Source of the DNA: Planctomycetota bacterium
Lineage (GTDB): Bacteria > Planctomycetota > Planctomycetia > Gemmatales > Gemmataceae
Assembly (NCBI GenBank): GCA_016873095.1
Contig: VGYC01000059.1
Location: forward strand, 1 to 36,821
Length of the DNA: 36,821 bases
Direction: 5' to 3'
Under the pieces are notes generated by a model that was not told the origin of the DNA, made no database searches, and saw nothing but the letters and a program-made list of their open reading frames with translations. Position numbers and translations under genes: made by a program. Below, one piece after another: positions 195 to 10,911 of the stretch. Numbering within the stretch: the first letter of the stretch is position 1; each line of letters starts with the position of its first letter.

Positions 195-932
195 GAGTTT
201 ACCCCGAGTGCGGAATCCCCCTTGATTGATAAGGAGCTGGTACGACTGGAACAGTTGGTGGATGACGCCCGTCGATCGTTAGCGCAAGCGCGGCTGGAGG
301 CGAAAGTGATTTCGGCAGAAGGGGCCGACGTATTCCAGGTTCAGCTTTGCTTGCCGCACGACCGTAAGTTCTGCCTGCCGGATGGAGTCATTGCCTATTG
401 CTGGCCTATCACGCTTCCAGAAGGTTCCGCCGTGACCGTCAAACCGGGCTCAGGAATCGTGGCTGAGTTCTCCCGACTTTCCTTCGGAGGATTGACATCC
501 TTTTTCGCGTTCAATCTTGCTATTGCCGACGGCGAACGAAAAGTCAGCGCTCGTTTTGTCTTGAACCTGCCCTTGGATGGCGCCCCCGTCGATCGGCGCG
601 AGCGCATTCTGCAATCGCTGCTGAGCAATCGGGCCGAGGTACTGCGTTTCTTGCTTCTCTTGCTTGCCGAGGCAGGCACCGACGCGGCCGGCATCCTTCG
701 TATTCCGACTCCATTCCAACAAGGCGAGAGTGGCAACGGACCGGGCAGCATGGGCGTTCCGCTCTTTGAGACCATGGTGCGTGCCCTTGACCGGCAACCC
801 GAGAAGTTGGAACAAGTGGCACGGCTCGTGGATGATCTCCAGAAGACGCCGGGAAGCAAGGATTTGCTGCCTGAAGGATTTGAGTTGGTCTGGCAGCCGA
901 TCTGGAACGCCTACAAGAGGATGAAGTCATGA
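126..932 (+). CDS. C-terminal remnant of a helicase-partner protein (probably PLD-like), 5' end replaced by an IS
   Basis: The open frame gives 268 residues, but the first ~23 codons (126-194) lie in the IS and overlap the transposase tail in another frame. Genuine family sequence probably begins near 195. The rest contains a coiled, charged stretch (EQLVDDARRSLAQARLEAK), a beta-rich middle (CWPITLPEG, SFFAFNLAIADG, ARFVLNLPLDGAP) and a Leu-rich helix (VLRFLLLLLAEAG). I recall this arrangement as the C-terminal half of phospholipase-D-like proteins encoded directly before large SF2 helicases. No HKD motif is visible, which fits loss of the catalytic N-terminus through the IS insertion. The stop overlaps the helicase start by 4 bases (ATGA at 929), so translation of the two was coupled. 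The function of the remnant is uncertain and it is probably inactive. Confidence 0.5.
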   Translation: MQIFSQKRWPAQPSWREFDDFALEFTPSAESPLIDKELVRLEQLVDDARRSLAQARLEAKVISAEGADVFQVQLCLPHDRKFCLPDGVIAYCWPITLPEGSAVTVKPGSGIVAEFSRLSFGGLTSFFAFNLAIADGERKVSARFVLNLPLDGAPVDRRERILQSLLSNRAEVLRFLLLLLAEAGTDAAGILRIPTPFQQGESGNGPGSMGVPLFETMVRALDRQPEKLEQVARLVDDLQKTPGSKDLLPEGFELVWQPIWNAYKRMKS

Positions 933-3900
933 GCATCCTTGGCGAGCGCCCGAATACCTCCAAGGTCCTCGATACCCTGAAGGACTTCCAGCGTGACACA
1001 GTGGATTACGTGTTTGACCGTCTTTACGGCAGCACGGCGCCGACACGGAAGTTCCTGATCGCCGACGAGGTCGGCCTCGGCAAGACTCTCGTAGCGCGGG
1101 GCGTGATCGCCCGGGCTATCGACCACCTTTGGGAGAAAACCGATCGGATCGACGTCATCTACATCTGTTCCAATGCGGACATCGCGCGCCAGAACATCAA
1201 CAGGCTCAACGTCACTGGAACAAGCGACTGTTCGCTGCCCACGAGGATTACCCTTCTGCCAACCACGCTGCAGAACCTACGCGAGAATCCGATCAACTTC
1301 GTCTCCCTGACTCCCGGCACTTCCTTCGACTTGCGATCAAGCCTGGGCAAGGTAGAAGAGCGGGCTTTGCTCTATTGGCTCTTGCGCGACGCTTGGGGCA
1401 TGAAAGGCAAGGCGCCGCAAAACGTTCTGCAGGGGAACAAGTCGAAGGCCAGTTTTCGTCACTGGGTCAGGAATTTCAAAGACTGGTATGAGATCGACGC
1501 TGGGCTGGCGCAGAACTTTGTCCGTGCGCTAGACAAGCACATGGCCTCGGAAAAGGAGGAGGGACAGCCGACGCTCCGCGATCGCTTTGAGGCTCTTTGC
1601 GAGCGTTTCGCGCATTCCCGGAAGCATGTACCTTCCGACGACAGATACGATCGTGCGTGCCTCGTCGGTGAACTGCGGACGTTGCTCGCGGTCAGTTGTC
1701 TTGAAGCGCTGGAACCCGACCTCATCATCTTGGACGAGTTTCAAAGATTCAAGTATTTGCTTGAAGGCGAAGGCGAACTCAGTCGCCTGGCTCGTGACCT
1801 ATTCGAGTACGCGGGGGCGCGGGTGCTGTTGCTCTCGGCAACGCCGTACAAGATGTACACGCTGAGCCATGAGGCAGAACAAGACGACCACTATGCGGAT
1901 TTCTTGCGAACTCTCCGCTTCCTCCAATCTGACCAAGAGCAGACTCGGCAATTCGAGCAGCTTCTCACCGAATACCGCCGTGAGCTATTCCGGCTGGAAA
2001 AAGACGGCGAACGATTTCAAACGCTCAAGCAAGAGCTTGAGTCGCGACTGCGTGCCGTGATGGTGCGCACGGAGCGCCTAGCCGTTACGGCAGATCGAGA
2101 TGGCATGCTCAAGGAGGTGCGTAGCTCGGCTGTCCAACTCGACTCCCGCGATCTCGAATCCTATGCCGCGTTGCAGAAGCTGGGCCGCGTCCTTGAGCAT
2201 AGTGACGTCATGGAATACTGGAAGGCAGCTCCTTACCTGCTCAACTTCATGGAGGGTTACCAGCTCAAGGAAGCCTTTGAAAACATAGCTGACCTGCCTG
2301 AGTTGGAGGCCAAGGCTGCTGAGATTCTCGCCAAGAGTCAGACTATGCTGCTTCCCTGGTCGGACATCTCAGCCTATCGAGACATCGACCCCGGTAACGC
2401 ACGCTTGCGGGCGTTGCTCGCAGATACAGTCGCTGCCGGCGCCTGGCAATTGCTGTGGATGCCTCCTTCTCTCCCCTATTACCGCCTTGACGGCCCTTAT
2501 GCCAATCCATCTGTCGGTTCATTCACGAAGCGGTTGGTCTTTTCCTGCTGGCGCGTGGTCCCAAGGGTTGTCGCCTCGCTTGTCAGTTATGAGGCGGAAC
2601 GGCGAATGATCCGTTTGTTCGAGGCAGAGCCTGAAAACTCGCCGGAAGCGCGAAAGCGACGGCGACCGCTGCTGCGATTTGCGCGCACCGACGGCCGTCT
2701 CACCGGCATGCCGGTTCTGGGCCTCATTTATCCGAGCGTCACGCTGGCTCGTATCGGCGATCCGATGGCGCTGACCATGAAATTGAAACCGGAGAACGGT
2801 CTTCCGAAAGCACAAGTGTTGCTCGATAGCATCCAGGCGCAGTTGCAGGACCTTCTTCCTACGATCGGGGCAAATTCAGGAACAGGGCCAAAAGACGAAG
2901 CCTGGTATTGGGCGGCGCCGATACTGCTCGACCTGCAGGCTGATCCGGAGGCAACGCGGGCTTGGTGGGCAGAGCAAGACCGAGCAGATCGCTGGGCGGG
3001 GACAGCGTCATCGGAAGAGGACGACGACGAGTCACGCTGGGCGGATCACGTTGAACATGCCAGGCAACTGCTTGAACAAAAAGGCCTGTTCGATGAGCAA
3101 CTCAAACTTGGTCCGCCTCCCGATGACTTGCCCCTTGTGCTCGCTCAAATGGCCTTGGCCGCTCCTGCAATTTCAGCGTTGAGAGCAATCGGGCGAGTCG
3201 CAGGTGGTCGTGAAGCGTGGAGCATGCCCGAGTTGCGAGATAGCGCTGCTCACGTCGGCTGGTCATTTCTCCATCTATTCAATCTGCCGGAGGTAACGGC
3301 CCTAATACGTGGCATCAATCAAGAAGAGCCCTTTTGGCGGCGAGTTCTGGAGTATTGCGTGGCCGGCGGATTACAGGCAGTCCTTGATGAATACGCTCAC
3401 ATTCTGCGAGAGTCACTTGGTCTGATCGACAAGCCGGCGCCGGAAATAGCGCGCGAACTCGCGGAAGCGATGCGCAGCGCACTCACATTGCGCACTTCCC
3501 CCTTGCGTGTTGATGAGATTAGCGCTGGCCCTTCGGTCAAGAAAGTTGTCCTGGGCGACCGCGTCATGCGTGCCCGATTCGCATTGCGATTCGGCGAGGA
3601 AAAATCCGAGGATGGCCAACCTGCGGTTCGCAAGGATCAAGTTCGTGAGGCATTCAACTCGCCCTTCTGGCCCTTTGTTCTCGCTACGACTTCAGTAGGC
3701 CAGGAAGGGCTCGATTTTCATTCATACTGTCACGCAGTCGTCCACTGGAACTTGCCATCAAATCCAGTCGATCTGGAGCAACGGGAAGGGAGGATTCACC
3801 GTTACAAGGGCCACGCCGTCCGCAAGAATGTGGCAGCCCATTACGGCCTTTCCGTGCTTGATGACAGTTGCGATCCGTGGGAATCACTGTTTCTTGCCGC

Positions 3901-4171
3901 CCGGCGAGATCGTGCTGACAAGTTGTCAGATATTGTGCCGTTTTGGGTCCTTGAAGGGGACGCACGGATCGAACGCCATGTGCCAGCGTTGCCACTCAGC
4001 CGCGACTTGGATCGGCTGACCGCATTGCGGAGGTCGTTGGCTGTGTACCGAATGGTATTCGGCCAGAATCGGCAAGAGGATCTCATTGCGTATCTGCTTG
4101 GTCAAGTGTCTGAAGCAGACCTGCAAAAAGTCATCTGCGACCTGAGGATTGATCTCGGACCGCCACATTGA
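929..4171 (+). CDS. Large SF2 DEAD/DEAH-like helicase (putative phage-defence helicase)
   Basis: This 1080-residue protein carries helicase motifs in order: motif I ADEVGLGKT (residues 45-53), motif II as DEFQ (269-272) instead of the usual DEAH, motif III SATP (303-306), and a C-terminal lobe with TSVGQEGLDF and motif VI QREGRIHR (951-958). About 600 residues separate the two RecA-like lobes, rich in charged helices, so a large inserted domain is likely. DNA- or RNA-dependent ATPase/translocase activity is expected from the family. It overlaps the upstream partner gene by 4 bases and lies in an island next to mobile elements, which suggests anti-phage or anti-plasmid defence; that role is inferred. 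The partner is IS-truncated, so the two-gene system is probably crippled although the helicase frame is intact. Confidence 0.8.
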   Translation: MSILGERPNTSKVLDTLKDFQRDTVDYVFDRLYGSTAPTRKFLIADEVGLGKTLVARGVIARAIDHLWEKTDRIDVIYICSNADIARQNINRLNVTGTSDCSLPTRITLLPTTLQNLRENPINFVSLTPGTSFDLRSSLGKVEERALLYWLLRDAWGMKGKAPQNVLQGNKSKASFRHWVRNFKDWYEIDAGLAQNFVRALDKHMASEKEEGQPTLRDRFEALCERFAHSRKHVPSDDRYDRACLVGELRTLLAVSCLEALEPDLIILDEFQRFKYLLEGEGELSRLARDLFEYAGARVLLLSATPYKMYTLSHEAEQDDHYADFLRTLRFLQSDQEQTRQFEQLLTEYRRELFRLEKDGERFQTLKQELESRLRAVMVRTERLAVTADRDGMLKEVRSSAVQLDSRDLESYAALQKLGRVLEHSDVMEYWKAAPYLLNFMEGYQLKEAFENIADLPELEAKAAEILAKSQTMLLPWSDISAYRDIDPGNARLRALLADTVAAGAWQLLWMPPSLPYYRLDGPYANPSVGSFTKRLVFSCWRVVPRVVASLVSYEAERRMIRLFEAEPENSPEARKRRRPLLRFARTDGRLTGMPVLGLIYPSVTLARIGDPMALTMKLKPENGLPKAQVLLDSIQAQLQDLLPTIGANSGTGPKDEAWYWAAPILLDLQADPEATRAWWAEQDRADRWAGTASSEEDDDESRWADHVEHARQLLEQKGLFDEQLKLGPPPDDLPLVLAQMALAAPAISALRAIGRVAGGREAWSMPELRDSAAHVGWSFLHLFNLPEVTALIRGINQEEPFWRRVLEYCVAGGLQAVLDEYAHILRESLGLIDKPAPEIARELAEAMRSALTLRTSPLRVDEISAGPSVKKVVLGDRVMRARFALRFGEEKSEDGQPAVRKDQVREAFNSPFWPFVLATTSVGQEGLDFHSYCHAVVHWNLPSNPVDLEQREGRIHRYKGHAVRKNVAAHYGLSVLDDSCDPWESLFLAARRDRADKLSDIVPFWVLEGDARIERHVPALPLSRDLDRLTALRRSLAVYRMVFGQNRQEDLIAYLLGQVSEADLQKVICDLRIDLGPPH

Positions 4172-4204: not shown

Positions 4205-5113
4205 TCAATCCGCAGTCTTCCCCTGCGCCACTTCGCCAAAGCTCCGCACTTCGAGCAGTTTCTGAAACTCGGCCAGAATCTCCGGGTGATGACCGGCCAG
4301 GTGCCGCACGACGCGCGGGTTGTCCAGGAGCTTACGCAAGTAGCCGACGACCAGGACCAGGTTGAGCGTGTTCTTGCCGTGGCTTTCCTCGATCAGCTTG
4401 AACTCGCGGCCCAGGGATTCCAGCTCGTGTTCCATCCGCGAAATGTCTTCGGGGGTCAGGCCGCGGATGTCCTTGCTGCGCTCGGCGTCGATGAGCGACT
4501 CGGCCGGCGTGGCGGCAACCAGGCACTTGGCGTAGCCGACGGAGAAGTTGTTGGCGGCGCACATTAGCTCGGAAATCTCGATCTGACGCATCGGCTTCAC
4601 TTTGCGAAACTCTCGCAAGGCAAGGGCGGTTGCCCGCTTTTCCTTGAGCAACTGAACGGCCTCTGGGCAAATCCCGTCCAGGAGGTCGCGCTTCTGGCGG
4701 ATGCTGTGGACATCGACGTTGAGGGCGCGGGCGATCTTGTCCTCGGTGACGCCGTTCTTGATGGCCCGCAGGATCATGAAATGTTCCTGGATCGCGGAGA
4801 GCCGGTTGACCTTGTGGTTGTAGGTGAAGCCCTCGTCGTCATCGGAGATCAGGCACTTGGCCGTGGCGATGCCCAGGAGTTTGAGGATCATCAGCCGCAC
4901 ATGGCCGTCGAGCAACATGAAACTGCCGTCGGAGTTCTCCTGGGGGAACACCACCAGCGGCTCGATCAGGCCGAGTTCGCGGATGGATGCCTCGATGCAC
5001 TGATACTTCGACGTCTTGCGAATGCTGTCGTCGAGGAGGCGCATGGGCAGGATTCGGGTCAGCTCGATCTCGACAATCTCCTCCTGGCAGGCCAGGTGGA
5101 CGGTGTCATTCAT
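4205..5113 (-). CDS. ParB/RepB-like protein with RepB-type C-terminal region
   Basis: This 302-residue protein starts with a ParB/Sulfiredoxin-like N-terminal domain (about residues 12-95, with the LLDGHVRL signature near 70 corresponding to the ParB box). An HTH-like region follows (GVTEDKIARALNVDVHSIRQK, about 120-140), then a helical C-terminus resembling plasmid partitioning RepB proteins. ParB-type proteins bind DNA and use CTP through the N-domain; whether this one does is unknown. Its ATG overlaps the stop of the next gene upstream by 4 bases (ATGA, 5110-5113), and that gene in turn overlaps the recombinase, so all three are probably one translationally coupled unit. There is no ParA ATPase nearby, which argues against ordinary plasmid segregation. 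It converges on the helicase gene with a 33-base gap. Confidence 0.75.
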   Translation of the reverse strand: MNDTVHLACQEEIVEIELTRILPMRLLDDSIRKTSKYQCIEASIRELGLIEPLVVFPQENSDGSFMLLDGHVRLMILKLLGIATAKCLISDDDEGFTYNHKVNRLSAIQEHFMILRAIKNGVTEDKIARALNVDVHSIRQKRDLLDGICPEAVQLLKEKRATALALREFRKVKPMRQIEISELMCAANNFSVGYAKCLVAATPAESLIDAERSKDIRGLTPEDISRMEHELESLGREFKLIEESHGKNTLNLVLVVGYLRKLLDNPRVVRHLAGHHPEILAEFQKLLEVRSFGEVAQGKTAD

Positions 5114-6006
5114 GGCGTGTCTCCGTGGTCATAGATTTGTGCGGCCAGGAACTGGGGCAGGGAATCCAGCCCTTCGGCGCGCAGGAGCGTGACGAAGTGG
5201 TCGTCCTTGAAGAGCTGCTTGAGCGCCGCCCCGGCAAACAGCAACCGCGTCTCGTTGATCTTGGCCTTCTGGACGATCATCTTCTGCCGCATGGTTTCCT
5301 GCTGGAACGTCTTCAAGAGGCTCTCGGTGGAAACGGGCTTGCCATTGGGCTTGCGCTGGTTGCCGCGTGGTTTTTTGCCGCGAGCGCGCCGGGTCTCGAT
5401 CAAGCGCCGGGCGCGGGTCAAGGCGCGGCCGCGCAGATCGTTTCGTTCGTAGGCATCCTGTAGCGCCCGCTGGACGGCCCTGTCGTCGGAGGTGGCGATG
5501 GTGATGGCAACGCTGAGCGGCAACTGGCCTTTTTCGACCGCTTGCAGGAGGCGATCCTCGCCGCGAGCGAGAAGCTGGAGGATGCCGCGAATGTAGGTCA
5601 CGTCGAGATCAGTTTTGCGAGCGATCTCGGCATGGCTGTAGCCCGCTTCCTTCATCCTCCGAATTTCGCGGATCAGCTCGACGGCTGAATGCTGGCGCCG
5701 GGCCAGGTTCTCGATCAAGCTCATCAGGTGCAACTCTTCCATCGTGCCCCATACCTGGATGGCGGGAATCTCCGTTTGCCCCAGGAAGAGGTAGGCTTCG
5801 AGCCGGCCCTGGCCGCACACAAGCCAGTACCGTACCTCGCCGTTCCTGCCCTCCATCAACGCCACCGTAACCGGCTTCTTGAGCCCCAGATGCGCAATGT
5901 TCAGGGCGATCTGCATGAACTTCTTGCGGCCGCGCTCGCGTGGGTTGAGCACTTCGATCTGAGTGACTGGAATGTAACGGATCGTGGGATCGTAGCGGAT
6001 GGTCAT
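5110..6006 (-). CDS. ParB-like nuclease-fold/DNA-binding protein
   Basis: This 298-residue protein has a ParB N-terminal domain (residues ~8-100) containing the CGQGRLEAY box and ENLARRQHSAVE, followed by an HTH of the KorB/ParB type (GYSHAEIARKTDLDVTYIRG, about 133-152). A strongly basic linker (RRARGKKPRGNQRKPNGKP) and a helical C-terminus complete it. It sits between the recombinase and the RepB-like gene with 4-base ATGA overlaps on both sides. That strict coupling implies fixed stoichiometry and a shared role, perhaps loading on or bridging recombination sites. That role is inference; the domain call itself is secure. Confidence 0.75.
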   Translation of the reverse strand: MTIRYDPTIRYIPVTQIEVLNPRERGRKKFMQIALNIAHLGLKKPVTVALMEGRNGEVRYWLVCGQGRLEAYLFLGQTEIPAIQVWGTMEELHLMSLIENLARRQHSAVELIREIRRMKEAGYSHAEIARKTDLDVTYIRGILQLLARGEDRLLQAVEKGQLPLSVAITIATSDDRAVQRALQDAYERNDLRGRALTRARRLIETRRARGKKPRGNQRKPNGKPVSTESLLKTFQQETMRQKMIVQKAKINETRLLFAGAALKQLFKDDHFVTLLRAEGLDSLPQFLAAQIYDHGDTP

Positions 6007-7562
6007 GCAGCCACCTCAATCTTTCGGCGCAGGGCCAGGGTCGCGAAATAGTCCAGGTTGTCGAACTGGTACGTATCCAGATGAGCCCCGTTGGTTTCGC
6101 ACAAGAGAAGCCGGGGCGTCTCGATGTCCATGATGGGCAAAAGATAGTAGTCGGCGGGCCTGGCGTTGGCCGGGTCCATGCGGACCAGGATCGTGATGTC
6201 TGGCGCCAGACGCTGGTCGAGCTGGATGAGCCAGCGAAGCGAGCCGGCCGGGGTTTGCCGGCAGCGTGACAGCACCATGGCGGCGCTGAACTCGCCGTTG
6301 ATGAGCAGGAGGTCAGTGGTTGCGTCCCTGGTCACCGTGGCGCCGGCGGCATCCAGGCGCTGGGTCACGTCGGCGACGAGCTGGGGATAGAGGGTACGCA
6401 GCTCGCGATTGATCTCCAGGTAGCGGTAGTCCCGGTCCGGCTCAAAGCCGGCCAGCCGGTACGCTCGCAGCAAGCTGCCAAAACGCGACCGATAGGCGCT
6501 GCTCGCGGGCATGCCGTCGGCGGCGTCGATGAGCTGGCTGGAGAGCGTGGACCGCTCCTGCGCCAGTTGCTTGAGCCGGGCCAGCATGTCCTCATCGGAA
6601 AGCCTGCGGGCACGCTCTTGAATGATGCCCCGCGCCATGAAGAAGTCTTCCGGCGCCACGATCGGCGTGAAGACGCCGTCGGACCGGACCCACATGTCCG
6701 GCGAATTGCGCACGTGCTTCTTCTTGAGTTTGAAAGACGTGCGGTTGTAGACGTTGTTGCCGATGTATTTCTCGTTGGTGAGCACTTGGTGGACGGTGCC
6801 GCTGGTCCATGGCCGGCCCAAGTCGGTGACCAGGCCCATCGTGTTGAGTTCCGCGGCGATCTGCGATTCCTGTTTGCCGTGCCGGATGAACTGCTCGTAA
6901 ATCCAGCGAACGATGCGGGTTTCCTCCTCGGGGCCGGGAACGAGGATCACGCGATCGGTTTGCAGGCTCTTCTGCTCGCCACGGGCCAGGAGGCCTTTTT
7001 GCTCGCCGGCCAGGTTGATGAGCATGCGCCGCAGGCCGTAACCTGGCGCCCCGCCCTGGCGATAGCCGAGTTCGATCAGCCGGCACTGGCCCTTGAAGAC
7101 CTTGGCTGATAGTTCGCGGCTATATTCGCCGGCCATGGCCCGCTTGACGCTCTTGATGATGGTCGAGGTCGGGCCGCCGTCGTTCTCAAACTGCTCTGCG
7201 CAATAATGCACTTCGATGCCGGCGCGCTTGCAAAGGTACTCGTAGTACGCGCTCTCGTCGGCGTCCTGGAACCGGCCCCAGCGGCTCACGTCATAGACCA
7301 GAATGGCGAAGAAATCGGCGCGTCCCGCCTGCACGTCGTCGATCATCCGCCGCAGGGATTCCCGGCCGGCGACATTGAGGCCGCTCTTGCCTTCGTCGGC
7401 GTAGGTGCGGACGATCTCAAAGCCGCGGCGCTGAGCATACTCGCGGATCACGTCCTCCTGGTTGGAAGTCGAATACTGCTGATGCTCCGTGGACATCCGG
7501 ACGTACTGGGCCGCCCGGGTGCGCGTGGCCGAACTCGGCGTGTTTTGATGAGTTTCCGCCAT
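6003..7562 (-). CDS. Large serine recombinase (resolvase/invertase family)
   Basis: The N-terminal resolvase domain carries YVRMSTEHQ with the nucleophile Ser24, then DEGKSGL and the conserved VYDVSRWGR. A Recombinase domain follows (PGYGLRRML, EEETRIVRWIYEQF, GRPWTSGTVHQVLTNEKYIGNNVYNRTSFKLK). The last ~200 residues have no obvious zinc-ribbon cysteines and end in a part I do not recognise. I place the start at 7562 (519 residues) because AAGGA stands 7 bases before this ATG; the frame stays open 36 codons further upstream without a comparable site. Large serine recombinases integrate or excise elements between att sites in a directional way. It heads a three-gene operon with two ParB-like genes. 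No att sites could be recognised. Confidence 0.85.
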   Translation of the reverse strand: MAETHQNTPSSATRTRAAQYVRMSTEHQQYSTSNQEDVIREYAQRRGFEIVRTYADEGKSGLNVAGRESLRRMIDDVQAGRADFFAILVYDVSRWGRFQDADESAYYEYLCKRAGIEVHYCAEQFENDGGPTSTIIKSVKRAMAGEYSRELSAKVFKGQCRLIELGYRQGGAPGYGLRRMLINLAGEQKGLLARGEQKSLQTDRVILVPGPEEETRIVRWIYEQFIRHGKQESQIAAELNTMGLVTDLGRPWTSGTVHQVLTNEKYIGNNVYNRTSFKLKKKHVRNSPDMWVRSDGVFTPIVAPEDFFMARGIIQERARRLSDEDMLARLKQLAQERSTLSSQLIDAADGMPASSAYRSRFGSLLRAYRLAGFEPDRDYRYLEINRELRTLYPQLVADVTQRLDAAGATVTRDATTDLLLINGEFSAAMVLSRCRQTPAGSLRWLIQLDQRLAPDITILVRMDPANARPADYYLLPIMDIETPRLLLCETNGAHLDTYQFDNLDYFATLALRRKIEVAA

Positions 7563-7673
7563 GATTGTTCCTTGGTGCTGGCGCAAGGATGCAAAACTCT
7601 GATTGCTATTCTGCGGGAGCCCTGTGGCAAATCGCGGTGGAAACCTGTGTGAAAGCTGTGTGATCTTCAACCA

Positions 7674-8147
7674 CTACAGAGCGAGCTTCAAGGCGTAGTG
7701 GCCGCGGACGGTGCCGTCGATGGCGTCAGCGACATCGCGAAGGCCGGCCTGACGCAGCCTGCTACGCAGCGTTTTCGCCACGCTGCGCACCGCCTCCTTT
7801 GAGCGGATGTCGCCCTCCCAGACTTCGGCGAGCAGGTCGTCGTAGGCGACGTAGGTGTTGCATCGCCGGGCGAGGAGCACGAGGAATTTGAACGGCAGCG
7901 TGTTGCCCAGGAAGCAAACCTTCCCGCGGCACGTGACAGTCAAGAGCGCCGGGTCAATCTTGAGCTTGCCCGTGCTGGCATCGCCAGTTGCCGGGACGGG
8001 CCGCGTCCGAAAGTACGTCACTGGGTCCAGTGCCAGCTCATCGCAGAGCAATGACAACGTTTCCTCCATCAGGTGCATGGTCGCTGAGTAGGATTCCGCC
8101 AGGCTGCGAAGGGATCGTTGAATCTGTTCGCGTCGGTGAATCTTCAA
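7674..8147 (-). CDS. Winged-helix transcriptional regulator (OmpR/PhoB-type DNA-binding domain)
   Basis: The predicted protein is 157 residues from a TTG start at 8147, chosen because GGAGG lies 5 bases upstream; the frame is open for 20 further codons without such a site. The N-terminal ~60 residues are helical. The C-terminal ~95 residues form a Trans_reg_C-like winged helix: LPFKFLVLLARR, YDDLLAEVWEGD, a recognition helix around VRSVAKTLRSRLRQAG, and the wing hairpin GTVRGHYALKL. There is no receiver domain, so it is not a standard response regulator. It lies 111 bases upstream of the recombinase start on the same strand and probably controls that operon or itself, which is an inference from position. 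Confidence 0.75.
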   Translation of the reverse strand: MKIHRREQIQRSLRSLAESYSATMHLMEETLSLLCDELALDPVTYFRTRPVPATGDASTGKLKIDPALLTVTCRGKVCFLGNTLPFKFLVLLARRCNTYVAYDDLLAEVWEGDIRSKEAVRSVAKTLRSRLRQAGLRDVADAIDGTVRGHYALKLAL

Positions 8148-9273: not shown

Positions 9274-9531
9274 TTACCACGGCGGCCCACATGTCTCCTC
9301 CAGCGCCGGGATTTCGTCTTCCGGGATTGCCACGCGAATTGAACGGGCGACACCAGCCTCCCTGGTCACAAGGCCGATTTCTTCGAGCTTCACGACCATG
9401 CTGTGAGCGGCCGGCGGCGTCACGCGAAAAAACTTCACCATGTCGGTCTCGGCAGGTCCCTGTCGATGAAGCCGGCGATAGAGATGAATGAAGGCCAGGA
9501 ACTGGCCCTGCCGGTGAGTGAAGGTTGTCAT
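9274..9531 (-). CDS. LexA-like DNA-binding domain protein without protease domain
   Basis: This 85-residue protein resembles only the N-terminal winged HTH of LexA/MarR-type regulators: THRQGQFLAFIHLYRRLHRQGPAETDMVKFFRVTPPAAHSMVVKLEEIGLVTREAGVARSIRVAI, here cited only to name its parts: helix 1 (HRQGQFLAFIHLY), recognition helix (PPAAHSMVVKLEEIG), wing (REAGVARSIRV). The autoproteolytic Ser-Lys domain of LexA is absent. I favour ATG 9531, which has GAGGA 7 bases upstream, over the GTG at 9549 that overlaps the dinB stop. It is directly downstream of, and nearly overlapping, DNA polymerase IV, so it may be a dedicated regulator of this translesion unit. MarR-like is the alternative family reading. 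Confidence 0.65.
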   Translation of the reverse strand: MTTFTHRQGQFLAFIHLYRRLHRQGPAETDMVKFFRVTPPAAHSMVVKLEEIGLVTREAGVARSIRVAIPEDEIPALEETCGPPW

Positions 9532-9545
9532 GCTTCCGTCCTCGC

Positions 9546-10745
9546 TCACTCCGACTGGTTGTCATCCGTGGCCGATGGCCGGTCCAACAGCACACCGCGC
9601 TGAATCGAGCCAGTGCCAAACTGGGCGCGGATCGTGTCGATGGTCTGGTCCAGGGCACCCTCGCGCTGACGGTTCTCCGGCTGGAATAGGTCACCCTGGA
9701 CCGCTGGCTCGCGCGTTAGCTTCGTCGCCCCCACGCCCAGCAAGCGGACTGGCAGCAGGTCGCTGGTCAGCGAGCGATCGAACACATCGGCGGCCGCCTT
9801 CCAGATGATGTTGGTCACGTTCGTGGGTTCGGCAAGCGTAGTTGATCGTGTGACGGTGCGGAAATCCGATGAGCGGATCTTCACGTCGATCGTGCGTGCC
9901 CAGATTCCTTCGTGGCGAAGACGGCTGGCCAGCTGATCGACTAGGTCGAGCAGCCAGACACGCAGGACGCCGCAGTCGCCGATGTCCTGGGCAAACGTCG
10001 TTTCGGTGCTGACGGATTTTGCTTCACGATCAGGCACAACGGTGCGACCGTCCTGGCCGTTGGCCAGTCGCCAGATATGCCGGCCCATCTCCCCGAACCG
10101 GTCGCTCAGGACTTTTTCGGGCATAGCAGCGATCTGGCCGATGGTACGAATGCCCATGTCATGCAGGCGCTTTTCGCCCTTGGCGCCCACGCCCCAGATG
10201 CGGCTCACCGGCAGCGGCGCCAGGAACTCGTTCACCTTGTTCGGCGGCAAAACCACGAAGCCATCCGGCTTGCCAACATCGCTGGCCAGCTTCGCAAGAT
10301 ACTTGTTGGGCGCCACGCCGACCGACGCGATCAGGCCGATTTCGGCGCGGATGCGCTCTTTGATCTGGCGGGCGATCTCGGGCGCCGGGCCGAACAGGCC
10401 TTCACAGCCGCGCACATCCAGGAACGCTTCGTCCAGGCTCAGCGGCTCGACAAGCGGCGTGAACGAAAAGAAGATCGAGCGAATCTGCCCGCTGATCGCG
10501 GCGTAATGCTGCATTCGCACGGGCAGGAAGATACCGTGCGGACAAAGTCGCCGCGCTGTGGAGATGGGCATGGCGCTATGCACGCCGAACGGCCGAGCTT
10601 CATAGGAGGCGGCGCAGACCACGCCGCGGCCCTGAGTGCCACCGACGATCACCGGCTTGCCGCGCAGCTCGGGACGATCGCGCTGCTCAACAGATGCGTA
10701 GAACGCATCCATGTCCACGTGCAGGATCGTGGGATCGGGATTCAT
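9546..10745 (-). CDS. dinB: DNA polymerase IV (Y-family translesion polymerase)
   Basis: DinB replicates past damaged bases at the cost of fidelity. The 399-residue protein from ATG 10745 has the metal-binding motif HVDMD (Asp11, Asp13) with AFYAS steric-gate region, SLDEAFLDV (Asp105, Glu106), SVGVAPNKYLAKLAS, and a helix-hairpin region (PVSRIWGVGAKGEKRL). The little-finger domain contains LLPVRLLGVG. A beta-clamp binding motif QGDLF stands near the C-terminus (about 350-354). The frame extends 19 codons upstream to a TTG, but the ATG puts the catalytic motif at the usual distance from the N-terminus. It is followed by a LexA-like mini-regulator. I could not find a convincing SOS box in the 167 bases upstream. 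Confidence 0.9.
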   Translation of the reverse strand: MNPDPTILHVDMDAFYASVEQRDRPELRGKPVIVGGTQGRGVVCAASYEARPFGVHSAMPISTARRLCPHGIFLPVRMQHYAAISGQIRSIFFSFTPLVEPLSLDEAFLDVRGCEGLFGPAPEIARQIKERIRAEIGLIASVGVAPNKYLAKLASDVGKPDGFVVLPPNKVNEFLAPLPVSRIWGVGAKGEKRLHDMGIRTIGQIAAMPEKVLSDRFGEMGRHIWRLANGQDGRTVVPDREAKSVSTETTFAQDIGDCGVLRVWLLDLVDQLASRLRHEGIWARTIDVKIRSSDFRTVTRSTTLAEPTNVTNIIWKAAADVFDRSLTSDLLPVRLLGVGATKLTREPAVQGDLFQPENRQREGALDQTIDTIRAQFGTGSIQRGVLLDRPSATDDNQSE

Positions 10746-10911
10746 GATGGCAAACCCATAGTGTGCCGATTGGGTCACGATCGCTTGTATCCGTGCAGCC
10801 AACGTGCCGTGGTCTTACCGATGTTCCGCGCTGAATGGACTCTGGCGCCACCGGCGACTCTTCGCTACCGCACGGAAATCTTCCGCCAGGCGTCGCCAGG
10901 CGTGAATGACT

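Follow-up and report, generated by a model that had tools for sequence, protein, structure and literature searches.

A conserved trio of a large serine recombinase gene and two ParB-fold genes as the putative core of a compact site-specific mobile element

What a large serine recombinase (LSR) does in one operon with two ParB-fold proteins and no ParA is the question raised by a locus of a Planctomycetota bacterium (assembly GCA_016873095.1), which we analysed in a window of 36,821 nucleotides (contig VGYC01000059.1, positions 1 to 36,821, forward strand). On the minus strand, the LSR gene (7562-6003; 519 aa from its ATG, with the frame open to 7670) is followed by a first ParB-fold gene with ParB_N and RepB domains (P0002, 6006-5110) and by a second, RepB-like one (P0001, 5113-4205). 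A first-pass annotation made from the letters alone had described three genes joined by overlaps of exactly 4 nt, and the coordinates of the open reading frames bear this out: the LSR stop overlaps the ParB start at 6003-6006 and the ParB stop overlaps the RepB start at 5110-5113. The reported lack of an adjacent ParA was likewise confirmed, as no ParA family was matched among the nine window proteins scanned (four from the operon and five neighbours) and none adjoins the trio in eight annotated plasmid loci. The operon had also been credited with a winged-helix gene of its own. An OmpR-type winged-helix gene does lie upstream of the LSR on the same strand (8147-7674, with a presumed TTG start at 8147; Trans_reg_C 5e-5, below cut-off), but it does not overlap the LSR gene and ends 111 nt before the LSR ATG. 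A homologue occupies the equivalent position in 6 of 13 other Planctomycetota loci, and the gene is probably the regulator of the operon in the window. Besides the two of the window, the 8.36-Mb draft genome encodes no RepB-domain (PF07506) proteins.

Loci were gathered by RepB homology from 392 Planctomycetota genomes, GTDB genome contigs, plasmids and viral contigs, which gave 104 distinct loci once duplicates (L029, L030, L094, L097 and L107) had been left out. All three genes were found in 93 of these, including two trios with the LSR in two pieces (L092, L122) and one with the ParB gene in two pieces (L123); ten of the other 11 loci reach an edge, and L114 holds an LSR remnant alone. Since order and strand are identical in all 93 complete trios, the arrangement in the window is not due to chance. 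The exact overlaps, for which conservation had been a further question, are usual at the LSR/ParB junction (4-nt overlap in 70 trios, 1-nt overlap in 16, a distance of up to 30 nt in 5, other in 2) but account for under half of the ParB/RepB junctions (41, 9, 40 and 3, respectively).

A family of ParB genes that mostly lacks a recombinase, the outcome named at first pass as speaking against the proposal, is contradicted for this RepB family by the 93 complete trios and by the strong RepB homologues (E < 1e-18) in the 392 Planctomycetota genomes, all 13 of which outside the window stand in LSR-ParB-RepB order. The same genomes contained 12 weaker matches (E 6.5e-9 to 1e-5); none of the seven inspected for neighbours had an LSR of this clade, which means that distant ParB/RepB relatives without this LSR do exist. 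Of the remaining weaker matches, one (G302) belongs to a trio that a contig end interrupts and another (G121) to a trio remnant. In the reverse search with the LSR over the 392 genomes, with scoring limited to three candidates per genome, at least 20 matches were obtained in 18 genomes, the window included. They comprised 14 full trios, one trio cut by a contig end, four LSRs beside truncated ParB/RepB remnants and one chimeric LSR; within this scope, no intact LSR of the clade was found without ParB/RepB genes or their remnants. The chimeric LSR at L173:1005-3065 has its C-terminal half swapped for other sequence in a 686-aa frame, with no ParB gene adjoining. These results support the trio as a conserved unit without ParA. 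The first-pass reading, in which the ParB-fold proteins would be accessory factors of the LSR (for directionality, synapsis or target choice) or part of a maintenance system without ParA, is supported in part, for this unit and, in one lineage, for site-specific element ends.

The three proteins also appear to have diverged in step. Correlations between their distance matrices were 0.885 for LSR and ParB, 0.913 for LSR and RepB and 0.937 for ParB and RepB, and the largest value in 200 permutations was 0.26. The trio is widespread among many distantly related bacteria, well beyond the locality of the window. The scan of GTDB genome contigs confirmed 266 RepB relatives, and the best 80 of these came from Planctomycetota, Alphaproteobacteria, Nitrospinaceae, Myxococcales, Verrucomicrobiales and a Dehalococcoidia bin, several of the records being metagenome bins. 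Because the Verrucomicrobiales and Nitrospinaceae loci (L094, L095) are 99.5% identical across two lineages, at least one of them is probably misassigned taxonomically. RepB matched 117 plasmid records, 83 of them over at least 80% of the protein, and some trio copies lie on chromosome-size contigs (L033, L070).

The recombinase itself was identified as an LSR, with Resolvase (PF00239, 8e-23) and Recombinase (PF07508, 4e-21) domains above cut-off, an HNH_repeat match below it, and columns, including R22 and S24, that are invariant across 33 aligned sequences. The first two domains are shared with SPbeta YokA/SprA and the Bxb1 and phiC31 integrases. Foldseek aligned the structure model with the SPbeta, Bxb1 and phiC31 integrases over about 320 columns, the SPbeta integrase giving the best value (7e-15), and the profile match to YokA reached 1e-11. 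The closest curated NCBIfam model is CcrB of the SCCmec recombinases (4e-24), although at 85 of 900 bits the match is far under the cut-off. Both kinds of recombinase move islands; Ccr systems are not known to have a coupled ParB pair. In LSRs, a zinc ribbon and a coiled coil usually control synapsis and direction. We found no zinc-ribbon or coiled-coil Pfam family in the window LSR at E 0.01, no conserved cysteine pairs across the 33 aligned sequences and, in the AF2 model, whose confidence is modest (pLDDT 73), no pair of long helices within the C-terminal half. Judged by family search, conservation and predicted secondary structure, the trio LSR thus seems to lack these parts and, unlike the large serine integrases, continues past the recombinase domain with an HNH_repeat-like helical part and a beta-rich C-terminal part, for which Foldseek gave no clear match. 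It differs from them further in that two ParB genes stand in the place of one small direction factor.

Profile and Foldseek comparisons gave both ParB-fold proteins a ParB/sulfiredoxin N-domain followed by a helix-turn-helix (HTH). The first protein matched RepB (PF07506) at 3e-21 and a Thermus Spo0J profile at 6.6e-15, with ParB_N below cut-off; the second matched PF07506 at 2e-45, and its AF2 model (pLDDT 79, pTM 0.48) retrieved Noc, KorB and ParB in Foldseek at 4e-8. The two are paralogues of each other (hhalign probability 96.8, E 2e-10). Neither approaches the RepB equivalog TIGR03454, against which they scored 21.1 and 16.3 bits with a cut-off of 201.5. Residues in the GxGR and EN motifs take part in CTP handling by ParB-type proteins. 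In alignments with Spo0J and Noc, the first protein retains both motifs, and the second has DGHxR and has lost the Glu of EN. Owing to this loss, the pair may possibly combine one competent and one degenerate nucleotide switch.

Mobility was most apparent on the pAt plasmids of Agrobacterium. In pAtC58, the block L056:6056-9959, which runs from a divergent small gene to just beyond RepB, forms a sharp 3.9-kb insert of the trio plus one small gene, and the block recurs in pAt1D1460 at 97% identity between other neighbours. Among the matches listed (50 of 188), the AbiE-side flank without the block ends at L056 6055-6079 in at least six records, more diverged AbiE-side flanks ending somewhat earlier than 6055, and the Fic-side flank without the block begins at 9936-9953 in at least four. 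Four other records contain the left Fic module of pAt1D1460 but not the block, and the module ends at L149 8014-8022. Both ends of L056 carry an imperfect direct repeat, CCTTGAnnGGAnTnGAACC. The same repeat, exact or in close variants, was found at both ends of L149 and at the joints of neighbouring cassettes that contain no trio, namely, at the end of an AbiE cassette (L148) and at the starts of Fic cassettes (L150, L151). Because the insert is sharp and bounded by direct repeats, its anatomy gives good support for a compact site-specific mobile element on these plasmids, with the trio as its core; site-specific insertion in other lineages is what we infer from this case.

A search for att sites, suggested at first pass, thus yielded repeats at the ends of the pAt elements, but no ends for the copy in the window. 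When repeat pairs at both trio ends were scored by local alignment at 91 loci with 30 shuffles each, six loci exceeded their best shuffle, and L056 was the only site-like one among them; the scores of L038 and L127 were equal to or above that of L056. The window did not pass this test with its 30 shuffles. No empty site was detected for the window element in 20 relatives or for L117 in 40 relatives, no clean junction was found in L062 and L147, and three decayed trio copies of S. meliloti gave no element ends. Several candidate sites were rejected. Transfer RNA genes are not a general target, as such genes or T-arm-like fragments adjoin only a few of the loci. The direct repeats of L032, L050 and L089 are fragments of genes (from the translations, a probable phage portal gene, a ParB-methylase and an HTH gene), that of L116 is promoter-like, and that of L117 is a second copy of a structured RNA described below. 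An apparent end of homology at +157 bp marks the end of the conserved core of this RNA, where divergence rises, rather than an element end. At L086, a 57-bp direct repeat around the trio is left as a candidate.

The surroundings of the trio change from locus to locus. In the window, two plus-strand genes resembling defense components, possible cargo outside the trio, lie beyond RepB: a ZacB-like gene that is cut N-terminally (126-932; PADLOC ZacB 8e-43, model positions 353-583 of 586) and a ZacC-like helicase gene (929-4171; PADLOC ZacC, E=0) ending 33 nt from the RepB stop. Positions 1-195, at which the ZacB-like gene is truncated, form a repeat that is present full-length at 99-100% identity at seven other places in the genome and partially at three more. 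To the right of the operon, a small gene without a known family is followed by DNA polymerase IV, and the region 9275-10756 around the latter recurs three times elsewhere in the genome, at about 81%. On annotated plasmids, the neighbours are AbiE with Fic, Dnd-type genes, type I restriction with Abi genes, AbiV, or ParDE toxin-antitoxin genes, the last of which we counted toward a mobile unit; in pPA272 they are metabolic genes and an integrase. Other copies adjoin phage genes, which from their translations are a probable portal gene and ParB-methylases. Eight of 20 long open reading frames sampled just downstream of trios matched PADLOC at 1e-10, a proportion that comes with no control set and from which we claim no enrichment; the 20 were drawn from 64 candidates at intervals of about three, with some substitutions, and so not strictly at random, and they may include a few frames that are not genes. 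Directly behind RepB, six loci (L031, L033, L054, L081, L083 and L088) carry a conserved P-loop-like gene, with an AAA_16 match below cut-off in L081. In L116, a 166-bp repeat (+201..+366 and +4084..+4249) precedes both a probable McrBC pair and a gene for a probable WYL regulator, as if two defense operons, named from their translations, shared one promoter type.

One branch of the family, which excludes the window, has an additional component. Directly behind RepB and in the same direction lies a noncoding stretch, of which 46 sequences from 45 loci were aligned (alignment A4; examples at L117:10920-11025 and L113:5432-5536, plus 43 further loci). A structure with a pseudoknot had 98.0% of its cells paired, compared to 89.7% after shuffling and 32-46% with slid partners; as it was derived from the 46 rows on which it was scored, the comparison with slid partners is biased in its favor. 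Changes on both sides occurred at 14 of 26 pairs, and none of 500 shuffles reached any of the five measures. In a second set of 20 further loci, three of which repeat sequences already in the first set, 97.9% of cells paired (91.9% shuffled) and 12 pairs had changed on both sides (0/500). The model that aligned this set did not contain the pseudoknot helix, which showed 96.7% pairing and one double change, a weak result on its own. G-U pairs are frequent, so the stretch fits an RNA rather than a DNA cruciform. The 3' part contains further, variable hairpins, with a strong last one in most of nine loci folded. Rfam 15 gave no match at gathering in the seven RNA loci searched and otherwise a chance-level match only. 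By its description in passages of PMC2864571, the STAXI motif, a repeated pseudoknot near integrases, differs from the trio RNA. The covariation is strong, and by this measure the stretch is an undescribed structured RNA. Distant hosts have nearly the same core, which makes a programmable guide within it less likely.

Most copies of the RNA lie right behind RepB. In 248 genomes of one family, there were 31 RNA copies (27 genomes) and 39 RepB copies (33 genomes); 25 of the RNAs lay within 100 bp behind a RepB match, and 14 of the RepB copies had no RNA found. The remaining six RNAs comprise three behind RepB remnants, a second copy close to a trio and two for which no remnant was detected, so that solo RNAs as independent genes were partly rejected. 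Two of the three remnants are LSR-RepB fusions from internal deletions (L225, L227), in which the N-terminal part of the LSR is joined in one frame to the C-terminal part of RepB, the RNA still being present downstream (118 and 81 bits). In L231, a separate deletion, a C-terminal LSR piece precedes most of RepB. In another genome, the RNA is kept with a cargo gene, with a trio remnant about 11 kb away. The RNA was found neither in the window nor in the planctomycete loci searched nor in the Rhizobium-type plasmid trios.

Taken together, a trio that forms a unit, divergence in step, repeat-bounded mobility in one lineage and the apparent loss of the control domain are supported. We give an even chance to the explanation that a family of compact elements with site-specific integration has the trio as its recombination core and that the ParB pair in it gates the LSR. 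Following the junction anatomy of the Agrobacterium lineage, the LSR would cut and rejoin the element ends at a short target. The two ParB-fold paralogues would be made in coupled amounts with it and would most likely be loaded close to these ends, as clamps or bridges that bind DNA; they would decide when the LSR pairs the ends and in which direction, and would thereby stand in for the zinc-ribbon/coiled-coil control apparently missing from the LSR. The winged-helix protein would regulate the operon in the window, a task that would fall to a divergent small gene, or to an RNA, in other branches. Gating of pairing and direction is the least certain of these steps and could go either way. An LSR usually gets by with one small direction factor or none, rather than two ParBs, which counts against gating, as do, for the explanation as a whole, the failure of the window in the repeat test, the unclean junctions of L062 and L147 and the derivation of the coiled-coil loss in part from a pLDDT-73 model. 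A stronger version, in which LSR, ParB and RepB form one machine with ParB clamps gating synapsis and direction and the RNA as a working part in one branch, appears doubtful.

The ParB pair could instead act outside recombination, as KorB-like regulators or exclusion factors in transcription or copy control, with the overlaps setting stoichiometry only. KorB, a CTP-switch repressor, is indeed one of the solved structures that come closest in fold to the second protein, and the upstream small genes vary by branch (winged helix, or divergent genes that are HTH-like or of unknown kind) while the pair is kept, which suggests that regulation is exchanged. Simple repressors are usually exchangeable, yet the pair diverges in step with the LSR, and both ParB genes, or remnants of one, stand beside it in 19 of 20 Planctomycetota matches; we therefore consider regulators a possible but somewhat unlikely answer. 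Partition-like maintenance of the element or plasmid, with a ParA borrowed from the host and the LSR as a resolvase, would agree with the RepB/ParB family membership and the many plasmid records. It is hard to reconcile with the missing ParA, the copies on chromosome-size contigs and scores of 21 and 16 of the 201 bits of the canonical RepB model, and we regard it as improbable. That the trio itself is a defense system or a regulator of defense islands is suggested by the PADLOC matches of the sampled downstream frames, for which there is no control set, and by ZacBC beside the window trio. The trio proteins match no curated PADLOC family save one generic methyltransferase (MTase_II, 17.7 bits), and the changing neighbours include phage and, in pPA272, metabolic genes, which makes this reading very improbable.

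The trio differs from the systems that it resembles. It shares the ParB fold and the RepB domain with ParABS and repABC systems; unlike them, it has no adjacent ParA/RepA, misses the family cut-offs and has a recombinase as its coupled partner. RIT elements (recombinase in trio) are compact elements of three overlapping tyrosine recombinase genes. The compact three-gene overlap is alike in both, with one serine recombinase and two ParBs in the trio. Passages of PMC12839542 describe ParB domains in BREX effectors and do not mention a recombinase. No description of the trio was found in the full-text literature, covered through listings and the starts of abstracts, with most subscription papers and preprints outside this scope.

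How LSRs are made to integrate or excise is an open practical question, and direction control matters in practice because LSRs are genome-engineering tools. A widespread clade that seemingly lacks the usual control domain and is coupled to two ParB-fold proteins allows a new control principle to be tested directly. If the gating explanation is true, ParB-type clamps would gain a job beyond partition, occlusion and transcription; if the RNA is a working part as well, the large branch that carries it would harbor an RNA-assisted large serine recombinase.
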